Source: Hexactinellida sp. DTS-2022
Lineage: Eukaryota; Porifera; Hexactinellida
Length of the DNA stretch: 64,000 bases
Reading direction: 5' to 3'
NCBI GenBank assembly: GCA_028753945.1
Contig: JAPNXP010000005.1
Coordinates: forward strand, 62,001-126,000
Part shown: positions 2,153 through 62,513 of the stretch, piece after piece
Position numbering within the stretch: position 1 is the first letter of the stretch
Layout of the letters: the number at the start of each line of letters is the position of its first letter
The notes under the pieces: model-generated
Databases searched by the model: none
Told to the model about the DNA's origin: nothing
What the model saw: the letters and a program-made list of their open reading frames with translations, nothing else
Position numbers and translations under genes: made by a program

Positions 2153-2188
<36 letters not shown>

Positions 2189-16403: not shown

Positions 16404-16440
16404 GCTGCGAATCTAATAATACTGCTCCTGGCGTTTGCTG

Positions 16441-19112: not shown

Positions 19113-19168
19113 TTCGGTGGATTATTGTGTGGGGTTTTGAATAAGTTAGTTCACTCAGATTGTTGGGT

Positions 19169-22125: not shown

Positions 22126-23019
22126 ATGAGTTACGAATACTTCGCAGGGCCCCCAGCCGGGGACAACTACTACCAATACAATCCCGGCGCATTCACCTTT
22201 GACATGTCGGCCTATCCAAACCTGCTCGGCGAGCCCCTCCTTCCCCCCACTCACTCGAACCTGTTCTCCGAGTACCCCCCCAGCTACCAGCCCTACCCGC
22301 CGGCCCCTGTCCCCGCCCCGGCGGAGCGTCTCCACATGTCCGTCTCCTCCGGACAGGGGCCCCCCGTGTACCCCTCCCTCTCGGAGTACCCGCCCTCCAA
22401 CGGCTCCTACCCCTGGGCAAACTCGCCCCCCGCCCCCCTCCCCGCGGCCCCCATGGGTCCCCACTCGCCCCATGACGACCAGCGCGTGCAACAGGAATTG
22501 CTGGACATGCTAGACGAGTACCAGCATCCTATCGACAACTTCTACCTGAACCCGCAGGGATTCGTCCCGTCCCCCTACGCCGGGGCCGGGCCCGACTCGG
22601 GCGACAGCAGCCCGCCCTCCTCGCTCTTCAAGCCCTCTCTCGACGACGACCTGGACGACGACGAGGATTTCGATTTGGACCTGGAGGACTTGGAGCTGCC
22701 GGACGGGGTCACCGAGGGAGATCTGTCCGCGCTTAAGATCCCGGACCTGAACAAGAAGCTCCGCGACCTCGGGCTGTCACGGGACGACCAGAACCTCGTC
22801 AAGAAGATACGTCGGCAACACAAGAACAGGCGCTACGCACACACCTGTCGCCAGAAGAAGGTCGACAAGAAGAACACCATGAAGGTCCAGAAGCAGGTGC
22901 TCGAGACGGAGATTAATGAGCTCAAGATGGACGTGGAGAGTCTCCGGCGCGAGCGGGACGAATACAAGAAGAACTACGAACTCATGCAGCGACGGAAACA
23001 TGAGGCCGCCAGGCCCTGA
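22126..23019 (+). CDS. Maf-like bZIP transcription factor 4
   Basis: An intronless 297-aa frame from the ATG matching the starts of bZIP 2 (MSYEYFAGPPAG). The N-terminal block is nearly identical to bZIP 2 and 3, and shares the GPHSPHDDQRVQQE extension with bZIP 2 only. An acidic stretch (DDDLDDDEDFDLDLEDLEL) precedes IPDLNKKLRDLGL, the basic region HKNRRYAHTCRQKK and heptads (LETEINELKMDVESLRRERDEY). It is inverted relative to the other three, so duplication involved an inversion or strand-independent conversion. Confidence 0.9.
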   Translation: MSYEYFAGPPAGDNYYQYNPGAFTFDMSAYPNLLGEPLLPPTHSNLFSEYPPSYQPYPPAPVPAPAERLHMSVSSGQGPPVYPSLSEYPPSNGSYPWANSPPAPLPAAPMGPHSPHDDQRVQQELLDMLDEYQHPIDNFYLNPQGFVPSPYAGAGPDSGDSSPPSSLFKPSLDDDLDDDEDFDLDLEDLELPDGVTEGDLSALKIPDLNKKLRDLGLSRDDQNLVKKIRRQHKNRRYAHTCRQKKVDKKNTMKVQKQVLETEINELKMDVESLRRERDEYKKNYELMQRRKHEAARP

Positions 23020-31101: not shown

Positions 31102-33709
31102 TCACTGGGTGTCCATGCTGACGTAGTCATTAGGTATGGACGACATTCCTAGCGTAGCCATGGTGCGGCCTGTCGAGTCGTGAGGCGGGGTGACGGCCTC
31201 ATATTTCTCCTCGATTGGTTCCTGCGAGAGTTTGAATCCCGTCTGTGCGTTATATGGGGGCGTAACCACCACGTAGGGGTCCGAAAGGAGGCGGGCCGGG
31301 GGCTCCTTGCTCCCCATGGGGACAGAGGGGGGCGTGACGGGGGCGTACGTGTCCTCGGAGAGGGTCCGCATCTGTTTAAGGGGGGGCCGGTCCCCGGTGT
31401 CTATCCGGAGCCCGGTACCGGTTGGGCCGGGCTCCTGCATCTCCATGTACGAGTCCTCCTTCGGGAGGGCGCCCGGGAGGGGGGGCAGGGGGAGGGGCCT
31501 GTCCACCTGTTGGTAGATGCTGTCCATCTCCGTGTAGAGGTCCGCGGGGGGCCGGAACTGGTTGTAGGCGGTCCCCTCCCCTGTCCCCAGGTAACGGTCG
31601 GACAGCTGCCGCATGAGCGAGCCCTTCCGCTTCGGGGAGGGCGGCACGCGGTTCTTGGCGCCGCTGCGCATGCACAGGAATATCCCCAGGAACAGCGCAC
31701 ACATGCCCACTATAACCAGACACAGCAGTCCTATTATCCCTAGAGAGGCGTAGGCTATGGTTAGCGCCCCCTCCTCGGGGGGGTCAGGCGGGGGGGAGGG
31801 GGCACCCGGAGAGGTGGTGGTGTCAACACCTGTGCCAGAGATGGTTAACTCGGGAGAGAAGGTCTTCTCGCTGAGACCGGTTGCCAGGTCGATCAGCTGA
31901 CCGGTCGACAGCTCCTGCAGCACTGACACCTCCGTTATCAGCAATCCCTGGTCCGGAGTCCGCAGGATTAGCTCCAGGTAATCCAGCTCCATCGGGGGGC
32001 TAACAACTCCGCTGTAGAGACTGAGACTGGGGACACTCGTGTCCACGACCTGAGAGCTGAAGGAGAACTGTCCTATCCGGTCCCGGTCCCGGAGCCCGCC
32101 CATGGGGCTGGTCACCCCCAGAGACAGCTCATTCCAATAGTACACTCGTATCTCCTTGACGGGGTACGACTGGTTCAGGAACAGCCGCAGTCCGGCCTGG
32201 TCCGGCTCCTGGAACCCCACCCACGCCCCCGCGTCAGAGAACGGGTCCGTACCTACAGGGCGTCATAAACACATTCCTACCTAACACGTTAGTAACCTAT
32301 CCTTATATGTAGACGGGCTATAAAAGCCCATACAAATAAGCCAAAAAATTGTAGACCAAAAGCCCTACCGTCTATGGGTATACTAATGTATATGTAAGAT
32401 AGCCTGTCTATAAATAGAGGGTCTACATATAAGTTATTACCTATGACTCCGTCCGTGAGCGCGCCGGTCCCGCCCGTGTAGAGGCTCCGCTTCTGTCCGG
32501 TGTACGCGGTGTCGTCGAACAGCTGGTTCAGCGTGACCAGGAGAGTGGGGGCATTCATGTTGTACTGCAGGAGGGCGGGGGGGACAGGGGCCCCCTGTGT
32601 GCCCCCCTGGGGCGGGGTCATGGCCCGGAAGTCCGCCTGGAGACACACGCTGACGGGCTGTCCCTGTCCCAACGGGGGCGCGGTACCCTCGATCTAACGG
32701 AGAATAAGCTCAGGGCCGTGCCACTAATACAAACCGACCAGGTCAAACCTGGGCATATTTACAATGGGTCGCAATGTTGCTTCCTCTAGTTAGGTTTGAC
32801 CTGGGCAGGTATCAATAGGCTCGCACGGCCTGTAAGATAGCTAGTCGGAACAGAGTGGGTATAGGAACTCACGAATAGAGATATCAGGTTCCCCTCAATG
32901 GGGGGGAATGAGAACCGCATGACCGGATTAAGCGCGGAGAGTCCCATCCTGGTCAGGTCCAGGAATCCGTTCTCTATGTAGCAGGAGCTGTTGACTGCCC
33001 TAAGACACGCATTATAGTAGATACCGGTTATAAGAACATTATATTGGAGAACGGTTGCCATATACCGGGTATATGGCAACCGTTTTCTTATAACTTCTTA
33101 TAATGTTCACTTCTTATAATCTTCTTATAAATGTTATTATAACTGGTTCTTATTATGCGTACAGGGCCCTGTATAATAAGACTTAGTTATAAGAACATTA
33201 TATGCAGTCCCCGATGATCTCCTTATAACCGGTATCCGCTGTTAACTAACACAGTAGCTAACAGTATAGTAGCACAGTGCTACAGGGCAGGGTATAGTCA
33301 GTGTACAGAGAGCTTACCTCTCGGGGCCCGGGGAGCTGATCTCCACCCCCATCCTGGTAACGACGGCCAGCTGTGAGGCCGGCTGCTGACAAGACCCCTC
33401 CGCTATCAGGTTCCGAATATCCACACCGGATACGGCGTACCTCGCGGCGGCATTAGTCGCGAGGGTAAAGCTGATCTCTTCGAACAGGAGCCCCTCGTTC
33501 CCATTCGTCCCGTTCCCGAGGGGGATTAGCCAGGTGGCCGCGCTGTCTATGTAGGGCACCCCCTCCAGCGTTAGGCCATCGGGGGCCCCGGTCATGGATA
33601 TGAGGTCAAGTGTTTTCTGGGCGTCCCCCTGGACCCTGTCCTTGAGTACACTGAAACTTTGGGCATCGGCCGAGAGGACCAGTACTAGCAGTAGCAACAA
33701 GGTATGCAT
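31102..33709 (-). CDS. DDR-like receptor A, kinase-less, with tyrosine-rich tail
   Basis: Exons 33709-33318, 32999-32873, 32693-32441 and 32252-31102 give 640 aa. A signal peptide (HTLLLLLVLVLSADAQ) leads into a diverged discoidin-type region. The second ectodomain module shares the ALTDGVIG and WVGF landmarks with receptors B-E. The membrane segment is IAYASLGIIGLLCLVIVGMC and following. The ~200-residue tail has no kinase domain. It carries three YxxM motifs (YTEM, YMEM, YVSM; the PI3K p85 SH2 consensus), three YxxVTPP motifs (YAPVTPP, YVVVTPP, YEAVTPP) and a PLPPLPGALP SH3-type stretch. Its stop is in the TM/tail exon, so no kinase exon follows. It is the last and most diverged gene of the cluster. 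Confidence 0.82.
32303..32440. mobile_element. GTAGACCGTCTATA repeat family copy
   Basis: In an intron of receptor A. Contains ATATGTAGACGGGCTATAAA, AAAAGCCCTACCGTCTATGG and a terminal GGGTCTACATATAAG. Confidence 0.7.
33012..33236. mobile_element. GGTTATAAGAACAT MITE family, compound copy
   Basis: In the first intron of receptor A. Several overlapping ATACCGGTTATAAGAACATT and CTTATAATGTTC words in both directions, probably nested insertions. Confidence 0.65.
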
Positions 33710-34014
33710 AGATTGTTAGTTTCATTACAAACTTTCTATTTATACTCCCTACGTCTGCTTGTTACGAGACCGCAGTCTCAAATCAATTACGAATTCGTTC
33801 TAACCAAATTAACCAATTCAGACAATCTAAGCAGATTTGTAAGCAGAGTTATACTGAATTAGCAACGTGCAATTCCTCTCTTTTTTGTTCCAAATCACTG
33901 CTATTTATAGAATAGCAGCATGGCACATTCTTATAGGAAGGAGCAACTATATTTATTTATTGTGTACAGACATATACAGAGTCAATAGAGATTACATAGC
34001 AACACGAAGGGTCA
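33710..34014. other. intergenic region between receptors B and A
   Basis: Holds a TATAAATAG box for receptor A on the minus strand (about 33736-33744, ~28 bp before its ATG) and the 3' UTR of receptor B. Confidence 0.5.
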
Positions 34015-37000
34015 TCAGATATTTATCTCTTCGATCTGAAACTTGCACATGTCCTCCAGTTCCCGTCGCACGGCCCCAAAGTTCGGTCTCAGTTCCCCCG
34101 TCAGATCCGTACACCTCAGGACCAGGTCCCACCCCTCCTCGGGGGCGTAGGGGGGCCTCTCCAGACGCACCCTGTCCTCCTTGTTGGCCAGCACGTCCTG
34201 AATCAGCTCGTGGTCCGAGAGACCCGGGTACGGCTTTTCCTGGCACTTGCAGAATATCTCCCAGAGGGTCACGCCGAACGCCCAAACGTCCGACTTTAGT
34301 GTGAATTTCCCGTAGAAACTCTCGTTTGGCATCCACCTATTAGCCGAGTAACGGACTGTATACACACTACATTCCAACTGACCTAATCGGTAACGTGGCC
34401 CTGCCCGTTATCTTGAAGTACTCGGAGCTGTATAGGTTCTGACTCATTCCGAAGTCGGCCACCTTAACGGTGTAGTTGGTCCCGACCAGACAGTTCCTGG
34501 CAGACAGGTCTCTGTGAATGTAGTTTCTGTCCGACAGGTACTCCATGCCCGAGGCGATCTGCTGTCCCATGTACACCATGCAGTCCTGGTTAACCTACAC
34601 CCATATATGGTCATGCAGTCATGCTTAACCGACACCCATATATGGTCATGCAGTCTGCTTAACCACAAAAGGGATTGAAAACTCATTTGATTTTTTTAAT
34701 TTTTTGATTTTTTCAAAGAAATTTAATTCATTGATTTGATAAAAGCTATTCAATTACTTATAAAAGCTATGCAATAACTATTGAATAGATTTTGCTCTTT
34801 ACAAATATTAAAACTCAACAGTAAATCAATTGATTTGATTTGGATTTTATATAAAAAATGATTGTTATACATCCCTGTAATAAATAAATACATTATTTAT
34901 TATTTATTATTGGTCATACAGCCCTATTACCCTCACTCCTTATATGGTCATGTGCCTCACTATACTCACCTCCTGTATCCTAAGGTTGGCGCCTATGCTG
35001 TCCACATAGTCCGACTCCTTCAGGAACTGCGCCAGATCTCCGTTGATCATGTACTCCATGGCCAGGAACCTGCCTGCGCTCGCGTCTAGACACACCCCTA
35101 TAAGCCGTATCACGTTGGGGTGGTCCAGTCGAGCCATGAACCTAACTTCGTTACTGAAGCTGTCCTTTGTCTGCTGGCTGGATTCCCCCGATAGTTTCTT
35201 AATGGCAATCTCTACGCCCATCCGCTCCGAGGCCCCTATGCCCAGGTCTCGGGCCGAATAGTTAACCAGCAGCGCCAGACATACCTCTCCGAACAGTCCG
35301 TTGCCAAGCAGCTCGTGCTACAAACACGCGTATACTTAATCAGTTCAGATAATTACTTGTTACATAGATACAGTAGTGTACAAGTGGTATGTCACAAGAT
35401 ACGGTACTTAGTTCAAACGACTGTTTGAACTAATCCCTCAACAGAGTCCCTATAAGGCGAGGGGGGGGTCCACAGGTGCAGCAGTTATAACAGAATACAA
35501 CTTTCAGAATACAACTTTCAGGTCTCGAGTTACCAGCCGCCCGCCCCCTAGTCAGTACTACCCAGTGCTTTCAATACAGATCTGTGTTATAAGCAGATAC
35601 TAAGCTTAGGCTATCGGTTACAAGTTACAACCAAGGAATTATCCAGGAGCGCGAGACGCTCTTATGGGAGTATGATTGTTGGGAAATTTGAATTTAGGAG
35701 CGCGAAAATTTTGATCTCTCTCCTATACCGTAACATTAATTTGTGAATTTAGAATGAAAATTGGATCAGATGAGGATTAGGAGCGTACTTACAAATGCCT
35801 GTATAATGCTGTATAATACACTGATTAGGAGCGTACTTATACACTGGTTATAACTCACCTCCTCTATGTCCTTCCAGGCGAGCACCCGGGGTCCCTCCTC
35901 CTGGGTCAACAGCTCCGGACTCTCGTAGAGACTCCCCGGCGGCTGCAGGGGCTGGCCCCGCCCCCCCTGGTCCCCGTCCAGAGGGGTGGAGGGGAGAGAC
36001 AGGTCCAACTGGGGCTCCGAGTATACCCGGCTCCTCTCTCGCTGTATTGTCGCGTAGATTGGCATTACTTCCTACAAAGGGTACGCTATAAGAGTGTTGT
36101 TACACAGCATGTACGTACCTGCCAACCGTACAGGGATTTTAACTATTTTGGTTGTTTTGTACAGGCGTAGATTTATTCAATTTGTACTGGGAATTTAGTT
36201 GGGACAAATGACTGATTGTGAGTCTAATAATACCCTGTATATTCTAGTATAATTCATTATATGGCCCATATAAGGATGTGTCCTAATAGGTTTGCAGCTA
36301 TAAGCTTACTGTTACAGGTAGGTAGCTAACTCACGGATAGGGGTGCGTATATGTGGAGGTCCTCCTCTCGGGTGTCGGGGGGCGGGTCTGCCTCTGTGAG
36401 CTCCGGGTCCGGCTTGTCCAGGACCGGACCGGATATGTCCAGAGGGGTGAGTCCCTTCACGGGCTCGTACACGGGGTCCCGCCCTCTCTTGAGGAGGCTC
36501 ACGGACCTTATTCTGCTCCGGATCCGCCCCGCGGTCCCCGTTTCCGCGTCGCCGTCCCACAGCTTCTTGAACTGCCCGTCCCTCCCCAGACAGAGGAGCT
36601 CCCGAGGGCTCATGCCCGTACTACGCATGTAGTAGAAGACGGAGACTATCAGGATAGCCGTCAGGACTATGATTATTATCATTATTATCCCGAATATGAG
36701 TCCCACGATCAGCTGCTCTCTCAGCTCCGCCTCGGTGGGGGCCACAGGGGTACCGGAGCCCGGGGAGGGGGGGACAGTAGCGACAGGGGGCGTGCTGGTT
36801 CCTGTCTCTTCTGTGCTTATGGTAGGTGTCTGGGTGGAGGTATCAGACTGTGTGTAGGGGGTTGTGTCGACAGTAGAGCTGACAACTGTAGTGACTTCCG
36901 TAGTAGGAGTTGTAGTAGGAGTTGAGATTACAGTTGTAGTGGCTATAGTGGTTGGTGTAGTGACAGGAGTAGTGTCAGGGGTAGAGGCAGAGGTGGTTGA

Positions 37001-38751
37001 GGTAACAGTAGTGGCACTAGTGGTAGAAGTGGGAGCAGTAGTAGCAGCAGTGGTAGCGAGGGTGGTAGGAGGGGCGGGTGTGGGAGAGGTGGTTATGCTA
37101 GCCGGGTTCCCGGTGAGCACGTTGGTCCCGTCCCGTCTAACGAGCTCTACCTCTGTGAGCAGCAGCAGCCCCGCCCCGGCCGCATACCCCATGCGCACCT
37201 TCAGGTAGCTGGACAGCACAGTCGTGTCTCGGGAGAAGCTCAGCGCCCTCACCTTATCTCCGAAGCTAATCACCTCCGAAGAGAAGGCGAGGGTCCCGTC
37301 GTACTGGTCCAGGAACGTGACGTCAGCAGGGGCCCCCGCCCCCGCGGCGCTGTCGGCCCAGTAGAACAGGTTTATGCGGTCGAACTGGTGGCTGGATTTG
37401 AGCAAGAACAGCACCTCCACTGTGGGGGTGTCCGTCTGGTTCCAACCGACCCACTCGGAGGGCACGCTATCAGCGTCTCCGCCTACAAATGTATAGGTGT
37501 ACTACCGAGTGTATTATACATGCATTTGTAAATACGCTCCTAATCCTGGTATGATCCAATTTTCATACGCCTAATCACAAATTAATGTTACGGTATAGGA
37601 GAAGATTCCAAATTGTCGCACTCCTAAATTCAAATTTTCCAAAAATCATACTCCAAAAGGAGCGTCTCGCGCTCCTGGATAATTCCTTGCTACACTTAAC
37701 ACAGCTGCTATTACTACTCACCCACAGCTGAGTCGGCGAGGAGGCCGGTCCCCCCGGAGCGGTATCCCCGGGAGGCTATGCCCGAGTAGGCGGGGTCCGA
37801 GTAGGGGGCCCCGGCTGTCGACTCGGCCAGGTTGTACTGGTAGAGGGGCCCGCTCCCGAGGGAGGGGGGCGAGCTGTCCGTCCTCTCGCACCCGTACACC
37901 TCCACGCGCAGACACACCTCTGTGCTCACACTGCTGTCCAGGGGGTCCATGGTCAGCACCTACACACATAAGTACCGTATTGTTAAGTATAAGCGTCCTA
38001 GCTTCCTCTATTCGTGAGCCATTTGTATCCTCGATTTTTTTTTTAATTTAAAAAAAAAAAATTGAAAATATTATTTTTGTAGTATTTGATTGTTCTCAGC
38101 GACATTATACTTACCACAGTTTCATAAATTACTGTAATTACACTCCAGTTATCAACTAGTGTGTATTAATGTTACCCTACAAGTGCCATTACCCGGCGCT
38201 TATCAACACAACACAGTCCTCACCTCGAATCTTAGCCCGTCCGCAGCCATCGGGCCGAAACTGAACCTGGTTGTCTGTCCGTCCCCCCTGGTGCCCCCCA
38301 GTCGCTGCCAGTTGTAGAACGGCGCGCTGTTCCTAGCCTGGGTCCCTGCCTTGAAGGGGGTGCTCACAAACGTGTACCCGGTGGCCTCCTTCACCTCTAT
38401 AGCGAGCTCCTTTATAACCGCCGTGCTGCTACACACCGTGCCCGCCGGGCCCTGCTGTATGTCCAGCGCGGTTATCCAGTAGTGCGGCGAGAAGCTGTCC
38501 TTCGCCGCTAGGATGAAGTGCGGAAATGTGAACACAGGGGCGGCGGTCCGTATTGTGAGGGGGTGCGAGCTGTTTATAAGCGGGAGACCGGTTATAAAGC
38601 CACCGGAGTCCCCTATGTCCTGTTGGAGGGTCCGACTCTTGGCCGGGTCCACGCTTATGACGTCTCTAAGGAGCGGGGTGTTACATTCCTGGGCATCCGT
38701 TGCTAGGAGCAGGAGCAGGAGCAGGAATGTCAACGCGTTTAGAAGATCCAT
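34015..38751 (-). CDS. DDR-like receptor tyrosine kinase B
   Basis: Seven exons (38751-38224, 37959-37722, 37482-36335, 36071-35859, 35317-34970, 34594-34383, 34336-34015) give 1002 aa. A signal peptide ([19 protein letters not shown]) is followed by a discoidin-type domain (ECNTPLLRD to the [11 protein letters not shown] landmark of DDRs) and a second module ([28 protein letters not shown]). A Thr-rich stalk and a membrane helix near residue 518 follow. The juxtamembrane region carries several tyrosines (VYEPV, IYATIQ, YESPELL). The kinase has [43 protein letters not shown] and FGVTLWEI, matching DDR kinases and with all catalytic residues present. DDRs are collagen receptors. I chose the second Met because a TATATAAG box lies at 38799-38806. 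Confidence 0.92.
34577..34675. repeat. 35-bp tandem repeat duplicating the acceptor of kinase exon 6 (receptor B)
   Basis: Units like CATGCAGTCCTGGTTAACCT plus ACACCCATATATGGT at 34577 and 34612, with a partial third. On the coding strand each holds a TAG acceptor followed by the first codons of the exon (VNQDCM). Receptor D has the same arrangement. Confidence 0.85.
35637..35824. mobile_element. GGAGCG-hairpin repeat family, copy 2
   Basis: Reverse orientation, in an intron of receptor B: AGGAGCGCGAGACGCTC, then CTCCTATACCGTAACATTAA. Confidence 0.8.
37513..37690. mobile_element. GGAGCG-hairpin repeat family, copy 3
   Basis: Forward orientation, in an intron of receptor B. ACGCTCCTAATCCTGG to AAGGAGCGTCTCGCGCTCC. 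Confidence 0.8.
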
Positions 38752-38798
38752 TGAGTTATAATTATGCAAATATTAATGGAATAAATCAGTCCGTGGCT

Positions 38799-38806
38799 CT
38801 TATATA
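38799..38806 (-). promoter_or_regulatory. TATA box of receptor B
   Basis: TATATAAG on the minus strand, 48 bp upstream of the chosen ATG (38751). Initiation about 30 bp downstream would fall at the first Met, favouring the second. Confidence 0.55.
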
Positions 38807-38965
38807 GTGGGCAGTCTCCGCCCTAAGGAGGGACCCTAGCATTCAGGCGCTAGCATTGTGTAGTCAAGCAAGATTATGGCGTAATCGTATATTGCAAATA
38901 CTGCTTTTTGTCATATTTTTATACTTATGCATTATAATGATCTGCTTATAATACGATATCCAAAT

Positions 38966-41216
38966 ATGACATAATGGCACAATATGACATAATATCACAA
39001 TATGACATAATATCACAATATGACATAATATCACAATATGACATAATATCACAATATGACATAATGGCACAATATGACATAATATCACAATATGACATAA
39101 TATCACAATATGACATAATATCACAATATGACATAATGGCACAATATGACATAATATCACAATATGACATAATGGCACAATATGACATAATATCACAATA
39201 TGACATAATATCACAATATGACATAATATCACAATATGACATAATATCACAATATGACATAATATCACAATATGACATAATGGCACAATATGACATAATA
39301 TCACAATATGACATAATATCACAATATGACATAATGGCACAATATGACATAATATCACAATATGACATAATGGCACAATATGACATAATATCACAATATG
39401 ACATAATATCACAATATGACATAATGGCACAATATGACATAATATCACAATATGACATAATGGCACAATATGACATAATATCACAATATGACATAATGGC
39501 ACAATATGACATAATATCACAATATGACATAATATCACAATATGACATAATATCACAATATGACATAATGGCACAATATGACATAATATCACAATATGAC
39601 ATAATGGCACAATATGACATAATATCACAATATGACATAATGGCACAATATGACATAATATCACAATATGACATAATGGCACAATATGACATAATATCAC
39701 AATATGACATAATATCACAATATGACATAATATCACAATATGACATAATATCACAATATGACATAATGGCACAATATGACATAATATCACAATATGACAT
39801 AATATCACAATATGACATAATATCACAATATGACATAATGGCACAATATGACATAATATCACAATATGACATAATATCACAATATGACATAATATCACAA
39901 TATGACATAATATCACAATATGACATAATGGCACAATATGACATAATATCACAATATGACATAATATCACAATATGACATAATGGCACAATATGACATAA
40001 TATCACAATATGACATAATGGCACAATATGACATAATATCACAATATGACATAATATCACAATATGACATAATGGCACAATATGACATAATATCACAATA
40101 TGACATAATATCACAATATGACATAATGGCACAATATGACATAATATCACAATATGACATAATGGCACAATATGACATAATATCACAATATGACATAATA
40201 TCACAATATGACATAATGGCACAATATGACATAATATCACAATATGACATAATGGCACAATATGACATAATATCACAATATGACATAATGGCACAATATG
40301 ACATAATATCACAATATGACATAATATCACAATATGACATAATATCACAATATGACATAATGGCACAATATGACATAATATCACAATATGACATAATGGC
40401 ACAATATGACATAATATCACAATATGACATAATGGCACAATATGACATAATATCACAATATGACATAATGGCACAATATGACATAATATCACAATATGAC
40501 ATAATATCACAATATGACATAATATCACAATATGACATAATATCACAATATGACATAATGGCACAATATGACATAATATCACAATATGACATAATATCAC
40601 AATATGACATAATATCACAATATGACATAATGGCACAATATGACATAATATCACAATATGACATAATATCACAATATGACATAATGGCACAATATGACAT
40701 AATGGCACAATATGACATAATATCACAATATGACATAATATCACAATATGACATAATGGCACAATATGACATAATGGCACAATATGACATAATATCACAA
40801 TATGACATAATATCACAATATGACATAATGGCACAATATGACATAATATCACAATATGACATAATGGCACAATATGACATAATATCACAATATGACATAA
40901 TGGCACAATATGACATAATATCACAATATGACATAATGGCACAATATGACATAATATCACAATATGACATAATATCACAATATGACATAATATCACAATA
41001 TGACATAATATCACAATATGACATAATGGCACAATATGACATAATATCACAATATGACATAATATCACAATATGACATAATATCACAATATGACATAATA
41101 TCACAATATGACATAATATCACAATATGACATAATATCACAATATGACATAATATCACAATATGACATAATGGCACAATATGACATAATGGCACAATATG
41201 ACATAATGGCACAGTT
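38966..41216. repeat. 18-bp satellite of two variants with higher-order structure
   Basis: About 125 head-to-tail copies of AATATCACAATATGACAT (variant a) or AATGGCACAATATGACAT (variant b), differing only at the TAT/TGG-type positions. Because 18 is a multiple of 3, several frames on both strands stay open for over 700 codons, which is not evidence of a gene. The order of a and b is irregular, but a 31-unit (558-bp) string at 39280-39837 recurs at 40072-40629. The array lies between the last proposed exon of receptor C and the promoter of receptor B. Confidence 0.97.
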
Positions 41217-41244
41217 GCATAGAGAATAGCAGGTGCCCTGTCAC

Positions 41245-43999
41245 TCATCTGAATTGGTAGTACTTTCCGGACTCTGCACTCCCATCCCCCTTCGCTTCCT
41301 AAACACACACAGTTAATACAAAGGTGTAGCCTAATAGCAAGCGCATTAAGCATTGGATTAGCTTGCTATTATGGGAACAGAATTAACATTAGATGCTCGC
41401 TTGGGGACTGAAAATATCTTGCTAATATAGCAATATAGTATTGCTATGAAATCACTTATATAGAGCTGAGCTTTGTAGAGTTCAGTTTTTCACTATGTGT
41501 ATTCATGCACTGAGAAAGGTCAGTTTTTTTCCAGAGTTTGAAATTGACCTTTAGAAAGTAAGCCTGGGCTTTTAGTATGGGAAAAAATCTGAACTCTACA
41601 AAGCTCAGCTCTATATAAGGATTCCCTATTGCTATTATGTGAGCATACTATATTCCCTAATAGCGCTCACAAGGCAGTATCTATAGCTCACCTCTAGAAC
41701 CGAATAGTACTGGCTGTCTGAGTCTGGTGTCTCCTCCTTGCTTTCTATTATATCCATACTGCATATAGTATCCATTGTATTCATACTGCATATAGTGTCC
41801 ATAGTATCTGTCTGTATAACGTTCTGGTAGCTGGGCAGCTGCAGGGAGCTCATGGGGACATAGGTCCCCTCGTCCACGGGCCCGTAGTCCCGTCCCTGGA
41901 CCAGGAACGCGCCCCGCCCCCGGACACACCTCCGACAACAGGCCCCCAGGCCCACCAACAGGAACCCGTTGAGACAGAGGGAGAGCAACAGACAGAGAGA
42001 GACCCCTAACAGGATGAGAGAGTCCCTCCCTAGTGACAGGAGGGGAGGGATGGTATGTACAGGGGCTGTAGTTGCTGTGTTGTTAGTGGTGTATAGAGAT
42101 GTGTTGTTAGGAGATGAAGTAGTAGTTGTTGTTGTTGTTGAATTTGTTGTTACTTCGGTTGGTATTGATACAGGTGGTGTTGTTGTTGTTGTTGTTGGTT
42201 CTGTTACCGCAGGAGTCAGCTGAGTGCTGTTCCGGCCCGTTATAACATTAACTACGCGTCCCTGGTCCGGCGCTAGCATCTCTATCTCCGCCAGCAGCAC
42301 ACAACAGCTGCTACCATAGCGGACGCGCAGCTTCACATAGCTAACTACCACTAGCGTATCCCGGGTATATATAAGCTCTCGCAGGTTAGAAGTCACGTTT
42401 CTAACTCGAACTGAGTCGAATGGAATTGTGTTGTTGTTCTGGTCTGTGAAATCAGCTGATCCGATCCCCGCGGCCGGGTCCTCCCAGAAGTACAGGTTTA
42501 TCCGGTTTATCTCGTGTCTCCGTTTGAAGAGGAACAACACCTCTATGTCCCCCGTCCGGTTCCGGTCCCACCCGACCCACCCCCCGGCCCCTGTCCGCGC
42601 GTCTCCCCCTACAAACGCACTTATAAGAACACATATATAGACAGAGCAATTCATATAGCATTTGATTGTATAGTTATATTTTAAGCGCTTCCTTATATGT
42701 AGACCGTCTCTCTCTAGATGGTCTATAAAAGCCCATACAAACTAAGCTAAAATTTGTAGACCGTCTATAAATTCTGTAGACCAAAAGCTAATGTATATGT
42801 AAGAAAACCTGGTCTAGAAATATACGGTCTGAGTAGCTAGTAGACAGAATTTATATCAGAACATATAGACACGTTCTATAGTGAATTTATGCATCTTATA
42901 TAGACACCGTTTAGCCAGCTGTCTCTGCTATTACTACTCACCCACAGTCCCATCGGCGAGGAGGCCGGTCCCCCCGGAGCGGTACCCCCGAGAGGCTATG
43001 CCCGAGTAGGCGGGGTCCGAGTAGGGGGCCCCGGCTGTCGGCTCGGCCAGGTTGTACTGGTAGAGGGGCCCGCTCCCGAGGGAGGGGGGCGAGCTGTCCG
43101 TCCTCTCGCACCCGTACACCTCCACGCGCAGACACACCTCTGTGCTCACGCTGCTGTCCAGGGGGTCCATGGTCAGCACCTACACATTGTTAGTTAGTAA
43201 TTACGTCACTAACTGTGCTATAGTAGAACCGTAGAATCCGACACCTGTAAGGGATAGGGGAAATATAGCGGTCAGGGCAATAGCCTGAACACTCTCACGC
43301 ACTAGGAACGCCGGTCAAGCCATGGCCTGACCACTTTATAACTGCTTCCTCCGGCCCTGTATAGGATTGCTAAATTGTCGGATATACAGGTTCTACTGTA
43401 TTGGTATCACGCCATAAGGCTGGTCCCTACATTCCTATGTATCTATACGGTATCTACATATTATACGGGGGACTATAGGCTACCTTTATTCTAATCCCGT
43501 CTCCTCCCATCGGCGGGAAGCTCAGTCGCACCACGCGCCCCCCCGCGGCGCCCCCCAGTTTCCGCAGGTTGAGGGTCGGGTTGCTGTTACTCGGGTCCCG
43601 TCCCTCCCGCCAGGGCGCGTCTATGGCCCTGTATCCGCTAGCCTCCTTCACCTCTAGGGTAACCTCCTCCGCGACGCCGCTGCTCCAGCAGTTCCGCCCC
43701 GCGGGCCCCTGCTGCAGGTCCAGGGCCGTGAGCCAGAAGTGGGGGGACAGCGGGTCCCGCCCGCTTAGCAGGAGGGTGGGGGTCGTGAAGTCTCCCATCC
43801 TAATAGTGAGGGGGTGCGAGCTGTTTATAAGCGGGAGTCCGGTTATGAACCCCGGGTCCGTCTCGCCGATGTTGTCGAGTGTGAATCGTGTGTTGGTCGC
43901 GTCTGGAGCCACCAGGTCCCGGAAGAGAGGGGTCCGACATTCCTGCGCTGTCACCGTGGATACCAGAGTGAGCAGTAGGAATGCAGTAAAACCTCTCAT
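41245..43999 (-). CDS. DDR-like receptor C, kinase-less
   Basis: Exons 43999-43484, 43179-42942, 42608-41692 and a proposed 54-bp last exon 41298-41245 give 574 aa. A signal peptide (RGFTAFLLLTLVSTVTAQ) is followed by a discoidin-type domain starting ECRTPLFRDL. Exon 2 is nearly identical to that of receptor B. The second module has GGWVGWDRNRTGDIEVLFLF, followed by a Thr/Asn-rich stalk coded by GTT-type repeats and a membrane helix (DSLILLGVSLCLLLSLCLNG). The tail is short, with YVPM, SYQNV and QYYSVLE. Exon 3 ends in phase 0 at GAG/GTGAGC. The proposed last exon adds EAKGDGSAESGKYYQFR. Without that splice the frame would stop at 41635. The exon could instead splice to the kinase exons of receptor B. 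Confidence 0.75.
41464..41619. mobile_element. palindromic MITE (CTTATATAGAGCTGAGC ends)
   Basis: 156 bp. CTTATATAGAGCTGAGCTTT at left is complementary to AAAGCTCAGCTCTATATAAG at right, with TGTAGAGTTCAG extending the arms. Lies in the last intron of receptor C. Confidence 0.88.
42690..42838. mobile_element. GTAGACCGTCTATA repeat family copy
   Basis: CCTTATATGTAGACCGTCTC at left, TGTAAGAAAACCTGGTCTAG at right, in an intron of receptor C. Confidence 0.75.
43222..43401. mobile_element. MITE with TCCGACAC / GTCGGATATACAG ends
   Basis: TAGTAGAACCGTAGAATCCG at left, GTCGGATATACAGGTTCTAC at right followed by TGTA, in intron 1 of receptor C. Confidence 0.7.
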
Positions 44000-44163
44000 T
44001 ATAAGTGATAAGGTTGCCTTATTACATTTGTTTACATGTTTACAGTTTGTATATCACAGTAATGTTTACACAATTTAATACAAATCATCCCATATTCACA
44101 CTGTTATTTACACAAACAAGAAAAGTTAAAAACTAAGTACAAAATCAACAAATAAAACAAATC

Positions 44164-47100
44164 TCAAATGGCCACCTCTTCCACACTGAAATTAGTCTCC
44201 TTCCCTAGTAACGCGGTCAGCTCTGAGAATGTGGGTCTATGAGCTGTCTCTATTACCAAACACCTGGTTATTACGGCCCATACCGACCCACTGGCGTAGG
44301 TGGGTCTCGCGAGGCGCACCCGGTTAGCCTTGTTCCCCATGACGTCACGAATCAGCTCCTGGTCCGTCATCTCTTCATACGGGCGGGTCTCCCCCTTAAC
44401 CATTATCTCCCATAGCGTAACGCCGAACGCGTACACGTCAGAGCTAACGGTGAAGCGCCCGTAGAACGTCTCGCTAGCCATCCACCTACACACGGTCAGT
44501 CCCAGGGTATTATACAGGAGTAGAATTGAACACTCCTAACTGTCCTAAGGTCACTAAAGTATGAATTTTGTACGCCTAAAAGGTTAGTTTTGTATTACTC
44601 TATGTGGACTTTCGGCAGTTTCGCGCTCCTAACCGCAAACATCCCAATTTATACTCTAGGCGTATGGCCGCTCCTGGATAAACCCCTGTACACACCCGTC
44701 AGTCCATGCTACAGTTAGCTAGCTACTCACCTTATAGGCAGTATGGCTCTGCCCGTTATCTTGAAGTACTCGGAGCTGTATAGGTTCTGACTCATTCCGA
44801 AGTCGGCCACCTTAACGGTGTAGTTGGTCCCGACCAGACAGTTCCTGGCAGACAGGTCTCTGTGAATGTAGTTTCTGTCCGACAGGTACTCCATGCCCGA
44901 GGCGATCTGCTGTCCCATGTACACCATGCAGTCCTGGTTAACCTACACCCATATATGGTCATGCAGTCCTGGTTAACCTACACCCATATATGGTCATGCA
45001 GTCCTGGTTAACCTAGATCCATATATGGTCATACAGTCTCCTTAACCTAGACCCATATATGGTCATGCAGTATAGTTTAAACTCTCGTTAATAGGAACAC
45101 GGATAAGGGAAATATCTGTTATGGAGTACAAGATTTAATTCCCCTAGTCTATACAATGCATGCAAGTGACTCCGGTAATACGCTACATTAACACGGTCCC
45201 CTGGTGTTCCTACAACAGACTACATATCCCCGCATACCTCTCCGCCCCTCAGGTTGCCCCCCTGTGTGTCCACATATCTGCACTCCTTAAGGAACTTGGC
45301 CATGTCCCCGTTCTCCACATACTCCATAACCAGGAAGCTCTGACTGCTGCTCTCCAGGCTGACGCCCAGCAGCCGCACCACGTTGGGATGGCTCAGTCGA
45401 GTCATGAACTTAACTTCCTTTCCGAAGTCCTGTTTGGCCTGGGCGGACGGGTCCGGCATCAGTTTCTTAATCGCGACTTTAACGCCCTTCGTCTGGGACC
45501 GCCCCAGGCCCATCTCCTGCGGCGACACAGCCAGCAGCGTAGCCAGCAACACCTCGCCAAACTGCCCGTTCCCAAGGAAGCTCTCCTAGAATGTGGTATT
45601 ATACAGCGGTGTTCGCGTAATAGCAAGTCGCTTGCCAATAGGCGAACATTAGAGGGAGAAAATTAACATGAATGCTCGCTTGCGACCTGTAAATCCCTTC
45701 CTTATATCCGGATATTCGTTATAAGCAGATAATAATCAATGCATTTAGTGCTCTGGGGAAAATCTCCATTTCGTTATAAGCAGTTATTTCGTTATATCCG
45801 CTTGCTTATAACGGGAGTTCACTGTACAGTATAGGCTATTCCTAATAGAGCAACATTGCTGTTATATCCGCTTGCTTATAACGGGAGCTACTAACCTCTC
45901 TGACGTCATTAGCGGAGAAGTGCCTGGGGCCCTCCTCCTGCAGCAGCAGCTCTGGGGCCTCGTACACACTGGAGATGGGCAGGAAGCTGCCTATCGAGTC
46001 GAAGGAGTCCCGCGAGGAGAGTCCCTGCTCCATTACGCTGGTCTTAGACAGGTCGTACAGGGGCTCTTCGTATATCCGCTCCTCCCGCCGGATGAGGGAC
46101 CGCTGCTTGTTGATGGTAGCGTACACGGCCAGGTCCTATGGACACAGGGTACATACAGGGGTGCACTTGTTCCCCGCCCCTAGACAAACCACTTACACAA
46201 CTAAGGTTGAATTTATGTCACCTTAAGATTTACATATCCCAGATTGACAAAATCTAAATTATTAAAACTCGATTGTTTGTTTTATTGGTTTGTTTGTTTG
46301 CTGTTTGTTTGTTTGTCCGGATTTTAGAGTGTAAAAATAAAAAAACTAATTCCCTGTTGTAAATTGTATATATACTCTGAGTATGTCACAGGTGTTCACA
46401 TAAGTGGAACTATAGACTATACAGAGATTAACACCTGCATACAAACTTCTGCTATTCTGTCTGTGATACAGATTGCAACACCTGCAACAGTAGCACGAAA
46501 AGTATAAATACAGTCAAGTTGTGAGCAGAATAGATGCTCTTACTGGAGCAACAGTGACTCCGATACGAGCATCTGATGCTCTTATGGGAGCGACAGTGAC
46601 TCCCATAAGAGCATCGGATGCTCTTATGGGGGCTAACCTCTGGGCGAGCGTATATGTTGTAGTCGTCCCCTCCTCTGTAGAACTCGTTCACCATGGTGAC
46701 GGCCCCGTTCTTGTCCCCAGACCCGGGGGACCCTGGAAACTCGTCCTCGATCAGCTGTGAGTATCCCTTCTCCTCCCGGACGCGCGCTATCCCGTCCGGG
46801 TCCTCGTAGTACGGGTCGCTGTGGTCCTGCTTGTTGATGGGCTCGTAGAGACCCATCTCGTTGCTCTGGCTCATCTGCCGCGTCGCCGTCCGGGTGTCCT
46901 TGGCCTTGGCGGCTGCGTACTCCTTGCCCCCACGGCCCCTCCGTCTCCACACGAGCAGACACACCACCAACAGCACCACAAGCAGCAGCAACAACAGCCC
47001 AATCGCCAGGACCCCCAGCACAGCCGCGAAGACAGCTGGGCTCATAGGGGCACTGGTACCGGCTAGGGTGCTGTTGGGTGACGTCACACTTGTAGCGGTG

Positions 47101-48551
47101 CTCTGGTATGTGGTGGCTGTGCTCGTTACACTGGGCGTAGCAGGAGCTGAGGTTGTTGCTATCTCTGTTGTAGATGCTGTAGTAGCGATAGTAGCAATAA
47201 TATCCATTTCGAACCGACTGGTGTCCAGCAGTACCCCCAGCAGGCTGTTGCCCGCTGGGTCCAGCAGCTGTACTTCTGTTAGCAGAGCAGTCTCTGTGCC
47301 CAGCAAACTGAGAGCCACCAGTCCGGTGGAGAAGCCGGCGAACGAGAGCACCCGTCGGTACACGCCCCCGTCCCTCTGCGTCTCTTCGCTGAGCGCCGTC
47401 TGACCGGACACCCGCACGGACGCCGCTCCCGGGGCTCCCCAGTAGAACGCACTGACGTTCTTGACAGACACACTGCTGCTAAACAGCAGGAGCATCTCCG
47501 GGCCCGACATGCCCTGGACCGTCAGGTCTGGTGCTGACCAGCCTACCCACTCACCGGGGTCTGTCTGTGTGTCTGTTCCTACAGGGGACAGGGTTACACA
47601 GCTGTACCATAGATAGGAATGTGGTCTGTTAGGGACCCCAGCGTTTTAGGGATCCCGTCCCCATATCGCTAGTGTTTTAAATCCCAGCTCAGGGGGCCCA
47701 AAACGCTAGCGATTTAGGGACGGAGGCCCTAAAACGCTGGGGTCACAAAGCGCGCTTACACCGGTACCTATGGTCCCGTCAGTGAGCAGTCCCTTCCCCC
47801 CGGACAGGTACCCCTCAGAGCGGACCCCCGAGTACCCGGGGTCCGTGTACCCACTGGCTGTCGGCTCCACCAGGTTGTACTGTAGGAACGTGCTGCTGCC
47901 GGGGGCGCTGTTAGAACCAGCGTTACACCCGTAGAACTCCGTACGGAGACACAGGAATACTGTCTCTGCAGTACCCCCTGGTGGTTCTGTTGTTTCTATC
48001 TACAGATATCGGACATCAAAATATTAACTCATAAAGAAATCTCAACTCACTCTAAACTTGATATAACTCCCTCTGATTGGGTTTGTCTTGAGTCGTATAA
48101 TTCTACCGTTGTTAGGATCTCCTAGCTCTGTCAGGTTCATAATGTTACTCTCTGCATAGCCTATTTGTATCAACGGATTGGTTGTAACGGTAGTTGGGTC
48201 CCCATCTCCTATCCTTATTGTCTGCATGGTTATAATCTCCCCATTTCCTGTACAGGAGCCTACGCTCCCGAACTGTATGTCTATAGCAGTTATCCAGTAA
48301 GACTGATCTAATCTGAATATTGGAGTGCTGAAAGTATCAAAGTTCCCCAAGTGTCTGAGCTCCAGAGCTTGTGATTGGTTGAGCAGAGGTACCAATCTAC
48401 CTGTATTGGTTCCTAATCCATTTTCAAAATCTCCCGTCTTACCAGTGTCTACGCTAATAATGTCTTTGAGTATCGGGGTGTTACATTCCTGGGACTCTGT
48501 AATATGTATCAGTCCCGCTATAGTGAGTAGTATGTGCAGACAGATTATCAT
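44164..48551 (-). CDS. DDR-like receptor tyrosine kinase D
   Basis: Seven exons (48551-48051, 47999-47768, 47578-46638, 46135-45896, 45585-45238, 44942-44731, 44485-44164) give 931 aa with the same phases as receptor B. A signal peptide and discoidin-type domain ([19 protein letters not shown]) are followed by [19 protein letters not shown] and EWVGW. A Thr-rich stalk and membrane helix ([21 protein letters not shown]) lead to a tyrosine-rich juxtamembrane region (LYEPI, DPYYEDP, IYARPE, VYATIN, YEAPELL). The kinase has [41 protein letters not shown] and FGVTLWEI, so it should be active. Exon 6 is nearly identical to that of receptor B, while exons 5 and 7 are clearly diverged. The ectodomain is closest to receptor E. 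Confidence 0.92.
44925..45080. repeat. 35-bp tandem repeat duplicating the acceptor of kinase exon 6 (receptor D)
   Basis: Four copies starting at 44925, 44960, 44995 and 45030, with a partial fifth. The first copy contains the true exon start. The extra copies lie upstream in the intron and each keeps (C/A)TAG followed by GTTAACCAGGACTGCATG or a close variant on the coding strand. Confidence 0.9.
45696..45828. mobile_element. inverted-repeat element with CGTTATAAGCAG words
   Basis: In an intron of receptor D. TATTCGTTATAAGCAGATAA and CGCTTGCTTATAACGGGAGT mirror each other, ending CACTGTA. The right-hand 29 bp are repeated at 45859-45887. Confidence 0.65.
46525..46632. repeat. tandem GATGCTCTTATGGGAGC palindromic repeats
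   Basis: About 2.5 copies of a ~43-bp unit. Each is itself a hairpin (GCTCTTATGGGAG and CTCCCATAAGAGC). The array starts just inside the intron after exon 3 of receptor D. Confidence 0.8.
47633..47749. mobile_element. palindromic MITE (GACCCCAGCGTTTTAGGG ends)
   Basis: 117 bp. GACCCCAGCGTTTTAGGG and CCCTAAAACGCTGGGGTC are perfect complements, and GATCCCGTCCC / GGGACGG continue the arms. In an intron of receptor D. Confidence 0.88.
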
Positions 48552-48787
48552 ATCTCCTGTGTTAGCTAAAGTGTAACAGAATCTGTCAGTTTAATTACTC
48601 TATGCATTAGAATCTCCACAATATATGAAAGAATATCATACCTATAATGACCCAGTTAATAACCAGATTATTTAGCTGCTAATTATGTTGTATAAACATA
48701 GCATTCTATATGTATAGCATTCTATACTTGTTCTATAAGAGTATCTAGGGCCTTATGTTTCCATGGTTACATTGAAAATATGCTTAA

Positions 48788-50874
48788 TTAAATGAATGGT
48801 GTATACTGAATATGCAGTCTGTGTAGGAATGGTTTGTCAGATAGCAATGCACTCCAGTTGAGAAAATAGTCAGGAGGTATGTCGGGAGATACGTTCCTTA
48901 AATCTCCAACCTAGCAACGTAAGAAATATTTTCTGTAATCCATTTGTCTTTTCATTTAATTCAAAAAATTCGATCAATTAATGTACAATTCAAATTATTC
49001 AATACTTAGTGTATTAATTATAACAAACGCATTGCTTTATTCCAATAGACAAGGCTATTAGCTTTCATTTGTACAAATCCATTCTCTAAGTTAGTTCATA
49101 ATACCCACTGGACTGGTGCGTTGGGTCTTTTGTTGTTTTCTACAATCGGTATATTAAATTATTGTTCAGATAGTTGAATCTCGCTATGTTATCTCATAAT
49201 ATCCAGTAGACTCCTGTAGTACTGTTGTGTCCTACAATACAACATAATGTAGTAATCATTCAATAGAGAGAATAGCTAACTACCTGTATCTCTGCATAGT
49301 TGTTCTCCTCTGTCTCATCCCCCGCAGGGAGCTCGTAGTACGGGTCATCCGTAGGCTGCTTATTTACAGGGTCGTACAGACCCAGCTCAATCATCTTCTG
49401 GAGCCGCTTGGTCTCCTCCTTTCGGCCCTGCCCCCTCCGTCTCAACACGAGCAGGCACGCCACAATAGGGGCACCCAGCAGCACTAATAGCAACAGTACC
49501 CCCATCGCCAGGACCCCCAGCACAGCTGCGAAGACAGCTGGGCTCATAGGGGCATTGGTACCGCCTAGGGTGCTGTTGGGTGACGTCACGCTTGTAGCGG
49601 TGCTCTGGTATGTAGTTGTTTCTACGCTGGGCGTAGCAGGAGCTGAGGTTGTTGCTGTCTTTGTTGTAGCTGCTGTAGTAGCGATAGTAGCAATAATATC
49701 CATTTCGAACCGACTGGTGTCCAGCAGTACCCCCAGCAGGCTATTGCCCGCTGGGTCCAGCAGCTGTACTTCTGTTAGCAGAGCAGTCTCCGTGCCCAGC
49801 AAACTGAGAGCCACCAGTCCGGTGGAGAAGCCGGCGAACGAGAGCACCCGTCGGTACACACCCCCGTCCCTCTGCGTCTCTTCGCTGAGCGCCGTCTGTC
49901 CGGACACCCGCACGGACGCCGCTCCCGGGGCTCCCCAGTAGAACGCACTGACGTTCTTGACAGACACACTGCTGCTGAACAGCAGGAGCATCTCCGGGCC
50001 CGTCAGGTCTGGTTCTGACCAGCCTACCCACTCGCCGGGGTCTGTTCCGTTACCTACAGGGGACAGGGTTACACAGCTGTACCATAGGAATGTGAGCTAA
50101 TCGTACCTATGGTCCCGTCCGTAAGCAGTCCCTTCCCCCCGGACAGGTACCCCTGGGAGAGGACCCCCGAGTACCCGGGGTCCGTGTATCCACTGGCTGT
50201 CGGCTCAACCAGGTTGTACTGTAGGAATATACTGCTGCTGGGGGCGCTGTTAGATGCAGTTGCACACCCGTAGAACTCCGTACGGAGACACAGGAATACA
50301 GTTACATCATTAGAACCTGGTGGCTCTGTTGTTTCTATCTACAGAGTACCTCAGTATATCAAAACTCTAAGTTTCTACTAGAATCTCAACTCACTCTATA
50401 TCTGATGAATATCCCTCTGGTTGGGTTTGTCTTGAGTCGTATAATTCTACCGCTGTTGGGATCTCCTAGCTGTGTCATGTTCATAACATTACTCTCTGCA
50501 TAGCCCACTTGTATGAACGGATTGTTTGAAGGTTCTGAGTCTCCTATCCTTATTGTCTGCATGGTTATAACCTGCCCATTCCCTGTACAAGTGCCCACGC
50601 TCCCAAACTGTATGTCTATAGCAGTTATCCAGTATGACTGATCTAATCTGAATACTGGAGTGTTGAATGTTTGAAAGTTCCCCAAGTGTCTGAGCTCCAG
50701 AGCTTGTGATTGGTTGAGCAGAGGTACCAATCCACCTGTACTGGTTCCTAATCCATTTTCAAGATCTGCCGTCTTACCAGTGTCTTTGCTAATAATGTCT
50801 TTTAGTATCGGGGTGTTACATTCCTGGGACAGCACTGTGTACACAAACAGAGAACTGACAACAAACAATAACAT
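48788..50874 (-). CDS. DDR-like receptor E, kinase-less
   Basis: Exons 50874-50395, 50338-50107 and 50053-49284 are firm. A last exon 48910-48788 is only a proposal (in-frame, 40 codons, containing IPPDYFLNW). Without it the frame would end after 7 more codons at 49260. The signal peptide is LLFVVSSLFVYTVLSQ, followed by the discoidin-type [18 protein letters not shown] domain. The second module and Thr-rich stalk are almost identical to receptor D at the DNA level. Then come a membrane helix (AVLGVLAMGVLLLLVLL) and a short tail with LYDPV, DPYYELP and NYAEIQ. There is no kinase. Exon 3 ends in phase 0 at CAG/GTAGTT, so splicing to the kinase exons of receptor D is also possible. An upstream Met at 50919 is less likely because a TATA-like stretch overlaps it. 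Confidence 0.75.
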
Positions 50875-50991
50875 TATTTTATAAACTAGCCTAACGGACA
50901 GACAGTATATTATACCCAACCCCTGTCATTTGATACTTTCCAATCTTATACCTCTTAATAATAATATTATTATTCTGTGATAGCAAATAGT

Positions 50992-62233: not shown

Positions 62234-62513
62234 TCACATTCCAATCTACACCTTTCGTTGTCAGAGTTTATGTATATGTGTTTTGTTATGAGTTGTTAGA
62301 ATAGGCCTTTAAACAGCTGTCCTCATTTAATTAATTATATTATCAATGATTTAACACCTCTCCTTATCTACTAACGGAGTCATACATTAGAACCTGTCTA
62401 ATCCGACACCCGTTGGGAATACTTGGGATAGGGAAAATGTCGGATTATACAGTAATATAACCTAACTAATACAAATATAATCCATACATAACTACTGCTT
62501 TATAAATTGATTT

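Follow-up and report, generated by a model that had tools for sequence, protein, structure and literature searches.

Kinase-less forms of discoidin domain receptors (DDRs) are already known: according to PMC4332414 vertebrates have two DDR genes, and the mammalian forms DDR1d and DDR1e are described in PMC4789497 as splice products. As reported in PMC5489314, a donor DDR1 phosphorylates, after collagen, receiver dimers with a dead kinase; the receiver needs its transmembrane domain but neither its own ectodomain nor its own kinase activity, and DDR2 can also be the donor. Kinase-deficient receptors are likewise known from other families, such as EphA10 and EphB6, which are traced to jawed vertebrates and are kinase-dead through altered catalytic motifs (PMC6993872). 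Here we analyzed a 64,000-nt stretch of DNA from Hexactinellida sp. DTS-2022 (the window, part of contig C14) together with its 112.4 Mb, 18-contig genome, and describe a tandem cluster of DDR-type receptor genes in which two members, B and D, carry a kinase and three, A, C and E, do not. Among the top-ranked titles and abstract openings of the open-access literature we found no gene-encoded kinase-less DDRs with motif-rich tails and converted neighbours. Co-receptors of the ErbB3 type are kinase-deficient, have repeated YxxM or Yxx-hydrophobic sites and act beside a kinase-bearing sister, with the catalytic and docking functions split between ErbB2 and ErbB3. A comparable arrangement, in which the kinase-less receptors are docking co-receptors trans-phosphorylated by B and D, is the reading that we prefer for the cluster, with a probability of about 0.5.

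The genes were modelled exon by exon with GT-AG introns in the window, which is free of any N. They lie head to tail on the minus strand from position 50874 to 31102 in the transcription order E, D, C, B, A (Table 1), and all five coding frames are open from start to stop. Genes E, C and A consist of four exons and genes D and B of seven. Each model encodes a hydrophobic N-terminus, an ectodomain, one membrane helix as judged by hydropathy, and a cytoplasmic tail. The junction of ectodomain exons 1 and 2 is in phase 0 and that of exons 2 and 3 in phase 1 in every gene, and gene A has one additional intron within its first exon. The five-gene cluster is real. An earlier note on this DNA (the original prediction) had claimed the same gene order, a signal peptide and a membrane helix in all five genes, and the in-frame models bear this out, the hydrophobic N-termini standing for the signal peptide. 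It had also taken the alternation of kinase-less and kinase-bearing members as a signal; the order was confirmed, but it says little by itself, being one of ten ways to place two kinases among five genes.

Kinase exons are present in D and B only. Both proteins matched the Pfam tyrosine kinase model PF07714 (E 2.5e-71 for D and 3.5e-71 for B), and their catalytic motifs (VAIK or IAIK, HRD and DFG) are intact. Compared with solved structures, the kinase of D matched chains of DDR1 and DDR2 at 2e-68 to 1.6e-66, with one EGFR entry interspersed, and the next receptor families followed only at 4e-50; the kinase of B was assigned via its alignment to D and by Pfam. These matches agree with the predicted complete DDR-type kinases. 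The juxtamembrane part up to the LGNG motif comprises 186 aa in D and 171 aa in B. No Pfam kinase model matched A, C or E, and tblastn with the cytoplasmic parts of B and D found no convincing kinase remnant after E, after C or around A (best E = 0.33, 9 residues), which upholds the claim that these three genes are without kinase. Genome-wide, 136 matches to the kinase of D were obtained, with the best-matching exons supplied by D and B. The three kinase exons of B show 86, 53 and 47% identity to the D kinase, and other genomic matches spanning most of this domain reach at most 40%. There are also unclassified kinase fragments, at most about 100 residues long, that share 41-57% identity with the D kinase, and a further intron-split DDR kinase is possible. 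Two dense clusters of kinase domains in long uninterrupted frames, possibly other receptor kinases, were observed on contigs C10 and C16.

The 3' ends of the kinase-less genes were analyzed in the same models. In both E and C, exon 3 is joined in phase 0 to a short last exon that belongs to the gene itself, so that E ends with NNYAEIQ followed by DTTVLQESTGYYEIT and C with YYSVLE followed by EAKGDGSAESGKYYQFR; both terminal exons end in a YY motif. The reading frame ends given for E and C in the original prediction run through the splice donors and had to be replaced, as these exons had been overlooked. A second copy of the terminal exon of E, possibly an alternative last exon, is located 44 nt beyond the first. 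The two copies are alike when anchored at the stop (0 of 20000 shuffles reach that similarity), and the terminal exon of C, anchored in the same way, resembles both of them (p 0.005 and 0.0008 by shuffling). An AATAAA signal is found 143 nt past the stop of E; neither AATAAA nor ATTAAA occurs within 400 nt past the stops of C or A. The truncated forms thus seem to be independent genes, each with a 3' end of its own, in line with the claim that they are gene-encoded. The 3' end of C is the least certain, because its last exon is closely followed by a satellite (2.25 kb, units of 36/90 bp) that separates C from B. This satellite is open in several frames, so that long open reading frames there are spurious.

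Kinase-less relatives were sought in the rest of the genome by searches with the queries C, A, K4, H, F and K1 and by scanning selected genomic stretches with tblastn and a hidden Markov model (HMM); all counts are lower bounds. With an exon 2 HMM built from A to F only, E-values between 1e-12 and 9e-5 were obtained for H, G, K4, K3 and K1, compared with 0.14 for the best-scoring reversed decoy. L was missed by this HMM and reached E 0.0022 with a wider one, N was included on the basis of E 6.8e-4 with the K1 query and its layout, and the family membership of K2 is weak (E 0.09 with the wider exon 2 HMM). Of the relatives outside the window, six are well supported (F, G, H, K1, K3 and K4), and L and N are likely members on thinner evidence. 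Contig C8 also contains H2, a partial copy of H which begins inside exon 2, has no exon 1 and was excluded from the gene count. Two small putative membrane proteins adjoining receptor L have short ectodomains and Tyr-rich tails (TYQEM, LYETL, HYSII), like adaptor-type transmembrane proteins; the motif excess in these tails is not significant singly (p 0.41 and 0.17).

The cytoplasmic tails of the kinase-less receptors are enriched in tyrosine motifs. The statistics comprise ten tails (E, C, A, F, G, H, K1, K2, K4 and K3), with K2 kept despite its weak membership and the tail frame of K3 included although this gene is partly modelled. Together they contain 40 Yxx[ILVMF] sites compared with 15.4 expected, a number reached in 0 of 2000 shuffles. 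Hydrophobic residues are in excess at position +3 of the tyrosine, where this comparison gave 15.6 expected for the 40 sites, but not at any of eight other offsets; among ten other residues placed at +3, only Gln showed a mild excess (p 0.016). The juxtamembrane parts of B and D show 6 sites versus 3.5 expected (p 0.11). YxxM occurs 7 times in the ten tails versus 2.0 expected (p 0.0025), and not in B or D. The tail of A is 188 residues long and has 10 tyrosines, 8 of them in Yxx[ILVMF] sites, three of which are YxxM; the tail of C has 6 Yxx[ILVMF] sites. The later-found tails of L and N jointly showed 9 sites versus 3.5 (p 0.0026), and the covered part of the N tail 4 versus 0.84 (p 0.0034), including three YxxM. 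YxxM as a special signature of phosphatidylinositol 3-kinase (PI3-kinase) was lowered in rank, since no clear enrichment is seen beyond the excess of hydrophobic residues at +3 (p 0.08).

Comparison of the neighbouring genes revealed three homogenised tracts. The likeness of E and D begins close to where the signal peptide ends and stops shortly after the helix; blastn aligned 737 bp with 86.7% identity and 712 bp with 89.2%, as well as a weak tail piece of 58 bp with 77.6%. The signal peptide and the 3' end differ. Within exon 3 the synonymous divergence (dS) is 0.088 for the ectodomain versus 1.25 for the tail, a rough value from 33 synonymous sites; over this short stretch the nonsynonymous divergence (dN) of the tail is 0.40. 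The low dS of the ectodomain and the high dS of the tail indicate that the E tail is old and that the E ectodomain was recently homogenised with D. Between C and B, dS is 0.10 in exon 2 and 1.22-1.40 in exons 1 and 3, and between D and B it is 0.14 in catalytic exon 6, compared with about 1 in the remaining exons of the kinase. As judged from these sequences, the patchwork is a pattern of gene conversion. A similar situation is reported in PMC12447643 for CD300A and CD300C, where conversion keeps the ligand-binding part alike and the tails differ. The intron preceding the catalytic exon contains 35-bp tandem repeats in both B and D; the repeat holds the first bases of this exon and lies partly inside the D-B tract.

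As the mature ectodomains of E and D are nearly identical, E and D should see the same ligand; different ligands for E/D and C/B are possible. Homogenised ectodomains with divergent tails in neighbouring genes, a feature of paired receptors, were found for E and D, and for C and B in exon 2 only. By overall identity E is nearest to D and C nearest to B. A tree of eleven ectodomains recovered E+D with 100/100 and C+B with 98/98, the kinase label requiring two changes, and a tree of exon 1 alone left B and C unresolved. The original prediction had paired the truncated forms with the kinases; this pairing is stable for E and D but less secure for C and B, which are no longer grouped without exon 2.

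The kinship of the ectodomains with DDRs was assessed with profiles. A profile of the five ectodomains matched DDR1 structure 4ag4 with E 1.7e-8, the aligned region comprising the last part of the first domain and a portion of the DS-like domain, and a profile of ten family ectodomains did so with E 1.7e-11. The Pfam DS-like model PF21114 matched all five weakly, under its curated cut-off, and the Pfam F5/8C (discoidin) model recognised the first module in none of them. The original prediction had assigned a discoidin-type domain and proposed a structure comparison with DDR1/2: the 4ag4 match speaks for this kinship, but it starts only at the end of the first domain, and the first module itself has no F5/8C match. 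AlphaFold gave a poor model of exon 1 (mean predicted local distance difference test score 49). A genome-wide Pfam DS-like search found one weak place, gene F (E 0.26), and missed the window's own genes, so that this search is insensitive here. Of the landmarks named for all five genes, YGC is missing in A, which also has WVGF instead of WVGW, and LTDG is replaced by LADG in C and by LADS in B. An N-terminal cysteine is present in 9 of 10 aligned family ectodomains and the cysteine of YGC in 8 of 10; A lacks both and K2 the second. An N-to-C disulphide is a mark of DS domains (PMC4332414), and the cysteine pattern is compatible with it, which is suggestive only. The genome encodes COLFI (fibrillar-collagen) and C4 domains, which matched in none of 14 prokaryotic controls.

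According to the docking co-receptor reading, the cluster would be a DDR-type receptor system split into enzyme-bearing (B, D) and enzyme-free subunits, with E, C, A and the scattered relatives retaining a DDR-like ectodomain and helix and ending in tyrosine-motif tails. If the genes are co-expressed, a ligand would cluster kinase-bearing with kinase-less receptors, B or D would phosphorylate the clustered kinase-less tails in trans, and the phosphotyrosines could serve as binding sites for SH2 proteins, with PI3-kinase as a candidate at YxxM. The signalling output would then be determined by the kinase-less subunit, as it is by ErbB3 for ErbB2. Gene conversion may maintain the likeness of the E ectodomain to that of neighbouring D, and both would then see the same ligand. 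A kinase-less/kinase pair that was duplicated in tandem is a plausible origin of the alternation; such a duplication would account for the gene order and for the likeness of the last exons of E and C, but the tree is no proof of it. An ectodomain with helix, the lack of a catalytic domain and a tyrosine-containing tail, as used to define kinase-deficient co-receptors, were all found, and from these we infer the docking role. By analogy with the DDR1 experiments, E, C and A have the form of natural receivers. Of the roles originally offered, co-receptor, decoy or substrate, the first and the last are strengthened by the tail motifs and by the receiver phosphorylation reported in PMC5489314, and a pure decoy is less supported since most tails are long and motif-rich. 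A rather doubtful extension would be a paired-receptor system of a non-bilaterian animal, in which two DDR kinases are shared by a diversified set of at least ten kinase-less receptors with conversion-matched ectodomains and interchangeable docking tails; if true, it would follow a repertoire logic otherwise known from vertebrate immune receptors and possibly serve matrix or self/non-self sensing.

Several observations weigh against the docking co-receptor reading. The first module is unrecognisable as discoidin, which leaves collagen binding unsupported, and of the relatives F, H, G, K4 and K1 the Pfam DS-like model picks up F alone, at a score under its cut-off. Without exon 2 the tree keeps E+D and loses C+B, C joining F (95/91), which is itself a long branch, and A has no kinase partner by sequence. 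The short tail of F has 2 tyrosines and no Yxx-hydrophobic site, and the excess in the L tail alone is not significant (5 versus 2.7, p 0.10). The presence of at least one Yxx[ILVMF] site in 9 of 10 tails is ordinary by shuffling (p 0.26), only the number of sites being unusual, and Met accounts for 10 of 49 hydrophobic residues at +3 compared with a background of 12.5% (p 0.08). In the ten tails neither acidic residues before the tyrosine (35 versus 30.1, p 0.18) nor YxN (5 versus 5.2) are enriched. The candidate for a p85 inter-SH2 region is weak: its E of 8.2e-6 lies at the family cut-off, and 8 of the 14 prokaryotic controls also gave matches below that cut-off. Finally, Yxx-hydrophobic is also the AP-2 endocytosis signal.

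On the last point, the kinase-less genes could encode endocytic, adhesion or scavenger receptors for matrix uptake or adhesion, whose tails are read by AP-2 and which have no link to B and D. The enriched pattern would serve equally well in this case, acidic residues before the tyrosine are not enriched, and most of the kinase-less genes found lie on contigs other than that of B and D. However, the repeated sites per tail (8 in A, 6 in C) exceed the need of one endocytic signal, N has three YxxM sites, and the homogenisation of E with the neighbouring kinase gene D suggests a functional link; we therefore consider such a role improbable. The almost unchanged mature ectodomain and helix of D in E, and a tail such as that of F, would rather be expected of decoys or dominant negatives, which bind the ligand of B and D or dimerise through the helix, dampen signalling and depend little on their tails. 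This explanation seems unlikely to us, as the Yxx[ILVMF] count over ten tails is far above that of the shuffles and as the tail of E, in which dN is below dS over the short stretch compared, diverged long before the last homogenisation of the ectodomain.

Two further explanations concern the genes themselves. E and C could be alternative ectodomain cassettes spliced into the kinase exons of D and B, and exon 3 ends in phase 0 in E and C as well as in D and B before the kinase part, so that the joins would be in frame; the lack of AATAAA or ATTAAA close behind C would also fit. Such joins would, however, span 3148 and 5620 nt, compared with 541 nt for the longest of the 21 modelled introns, and would bypass three exons of the following gene, among them the one with its start. 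Together with the similar phase-0 terminal exons of E and C and the AATAAA past the stop of E, this makes shared kinase exons quite unlikely. Decay of partial duplicates without function is highly improbable: partial copies such as H2 do occur, and the third and tail exons of K3 could not be joined, but A, C, E and F, G, H, K1, K2 and K4 have uninterrupted frames from start to stop, that of N is uninterrupted over the 530 residues covered, dN is below dS in the compared segments of E-D and C-B, and the tail motif persists even among members that are very divergent.

Besides the receptor genes, the window contains an open frame adjoining the cluster, which we take to resemble inositol polyphosphate 5-phosphatase, and four open frames elsewhere that presumably resemble bZIP genes. 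In three of these four the N-terminal half is near-identical and the basic-zipper ends are different, possibly through half-gene conversion. A tandem repeat around PPKCSASKGKCVGTGCNFGFYLTQ, readable on the minus strand, was also observed.

Table 1. Coordinates of the receptor genes, homogenised tracts and other features. Positions refer to the window unless another contig is named.
Feature	Contig	Position	Strand	Remarks
Gene E, kinase-less		49184..50874	-	exons 50874-50395, 50338-50107, 50053-49284, 49231-49184; 509 aa; in frame, GT-AG
Gene D, DDR-type receptor kinase		44164..48551	-	exons 48551-48051, 47999-47768, 47578-46638, 46135-45896, 45585-45238, 44933-44731, 44485-44164; 928 aa
Gene C, kinase-less		41245..43999	-	exons 43999-43484, 43179-42942, 42608-41692, 41298-41245; 574 aa
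Gene B, DDR-type receptor kinase		34015..38751	-	exons 38751-38224, 37959-37722, 37482-36335, 36071-35859, 35317-34970, 34585-34383, 34336-34015; 999 aa
Gene A, kinase-less		31102..33709	-	exons 33709-33318, 32999-32873, 32693-32441, 32252-31102; 640 aa
Second copy of E terminal exon, possible alternative last exon		49086..49139	-	KTTKDPTHQSSGYYELT and stop; acceptor TTGTAG
E-D tract		E 49416..50830, D 48495-46920	-	mature ectodomain and membrane helix, introns 1-2 included
C-B tract		C 42925..43186, B 37966-37705	-	exon 2 and few intron bases on each side; 96.6% over 262 bp
D-B tract		D 44725..45013, B 34664-34377	-	catalytic exon 6 and about 80 nt of preceding intron; 95.5% over 289 bp
F	C1			modelled start to stop in frame, same 0/1 phases
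G	C15			modelled start to stop in frame, same 0/1 phases
H, K1, K2, K4	C8			modelled start to stop in frame, same 0/1 phases
K3	C8			partly modelled; link of third to tail exon not found
L	C8			exon ends by eye, same 0/1 phases
N	C11			one long open frame without 0/1-phase introns; 530 of 555 residues covered
H2, partial copy of H	C8	L050, about 620-2388		
Putative membrane proteins adjoining L	C8	L045, 6279-6836 and 7379-7903	-	
Dense kinase-domain clusters	C10, C16	C10:1378857-1415855, C16:5493032-5512085		possibly other receptor kinases
Satellite		38956-41207		
35-bp tandem repeats		B 34577-34664, D 44925-45071		
Frame presumably like 5-phosphatase		52066-52866	+	
Frames presumably like bZIP genes		15633-16412, 18201-19121, 20035-21045	-	
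Frame presumably like bZIP genes		21877-23019	+	
Tandem repeat		62500-62943		

More kinase-less forms than kinases were found, and the former look like a gene family in its own right. The converted ectodomains predict which of the receptors share a ligand. If the docking co-receptor reading is confirmed, the split into catalytic and docking subunits would have arisen also within the DDR family of another animal lineage. Phosphorylation between DDRs, elsewhere shown with engineered mutants (PMC5489314), would then be the natural mode in this animal.

The receptors described here share with vertebrate DDR1 and DDR2 a DS-like domain, one helix, a long cytosolic juxtamembrane part and a DDR-type kinase; they differ in that the kinase-less forms look like separate genes and that the first module is unrecognisable as discoidin. 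Like ErbB3, E, C and A are receptors without effective kinase which have repeated YxxM or Yxx-hydrophobic sites and lie beside a kinase-bearing sister, but they belong to another family, their kinase domain is absent and not weakened, and the partnership is proposed from sequence. EphA10 and EphB6 are likewise inactive members of a receptor kinase family working with active sisters, although their catalytic motifs are altered where the domain is absent here (PMC6993872). CD300A and CD300C are also related genes with ectodomains homogenised by gene conversion and different cytoplasmic tails, as described in PMC12447643; in our case one partner is a receptor tyrosine kinase, and the receptors are not of the immunoglobulin type. 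DDR1d and DDR1e also combine a DDR ectodomain and helix without a working kinase; according to PMC4789497 they derive from one alternatively spliced gene, whereas E, C and A each have a gene model and a tail to themselves.

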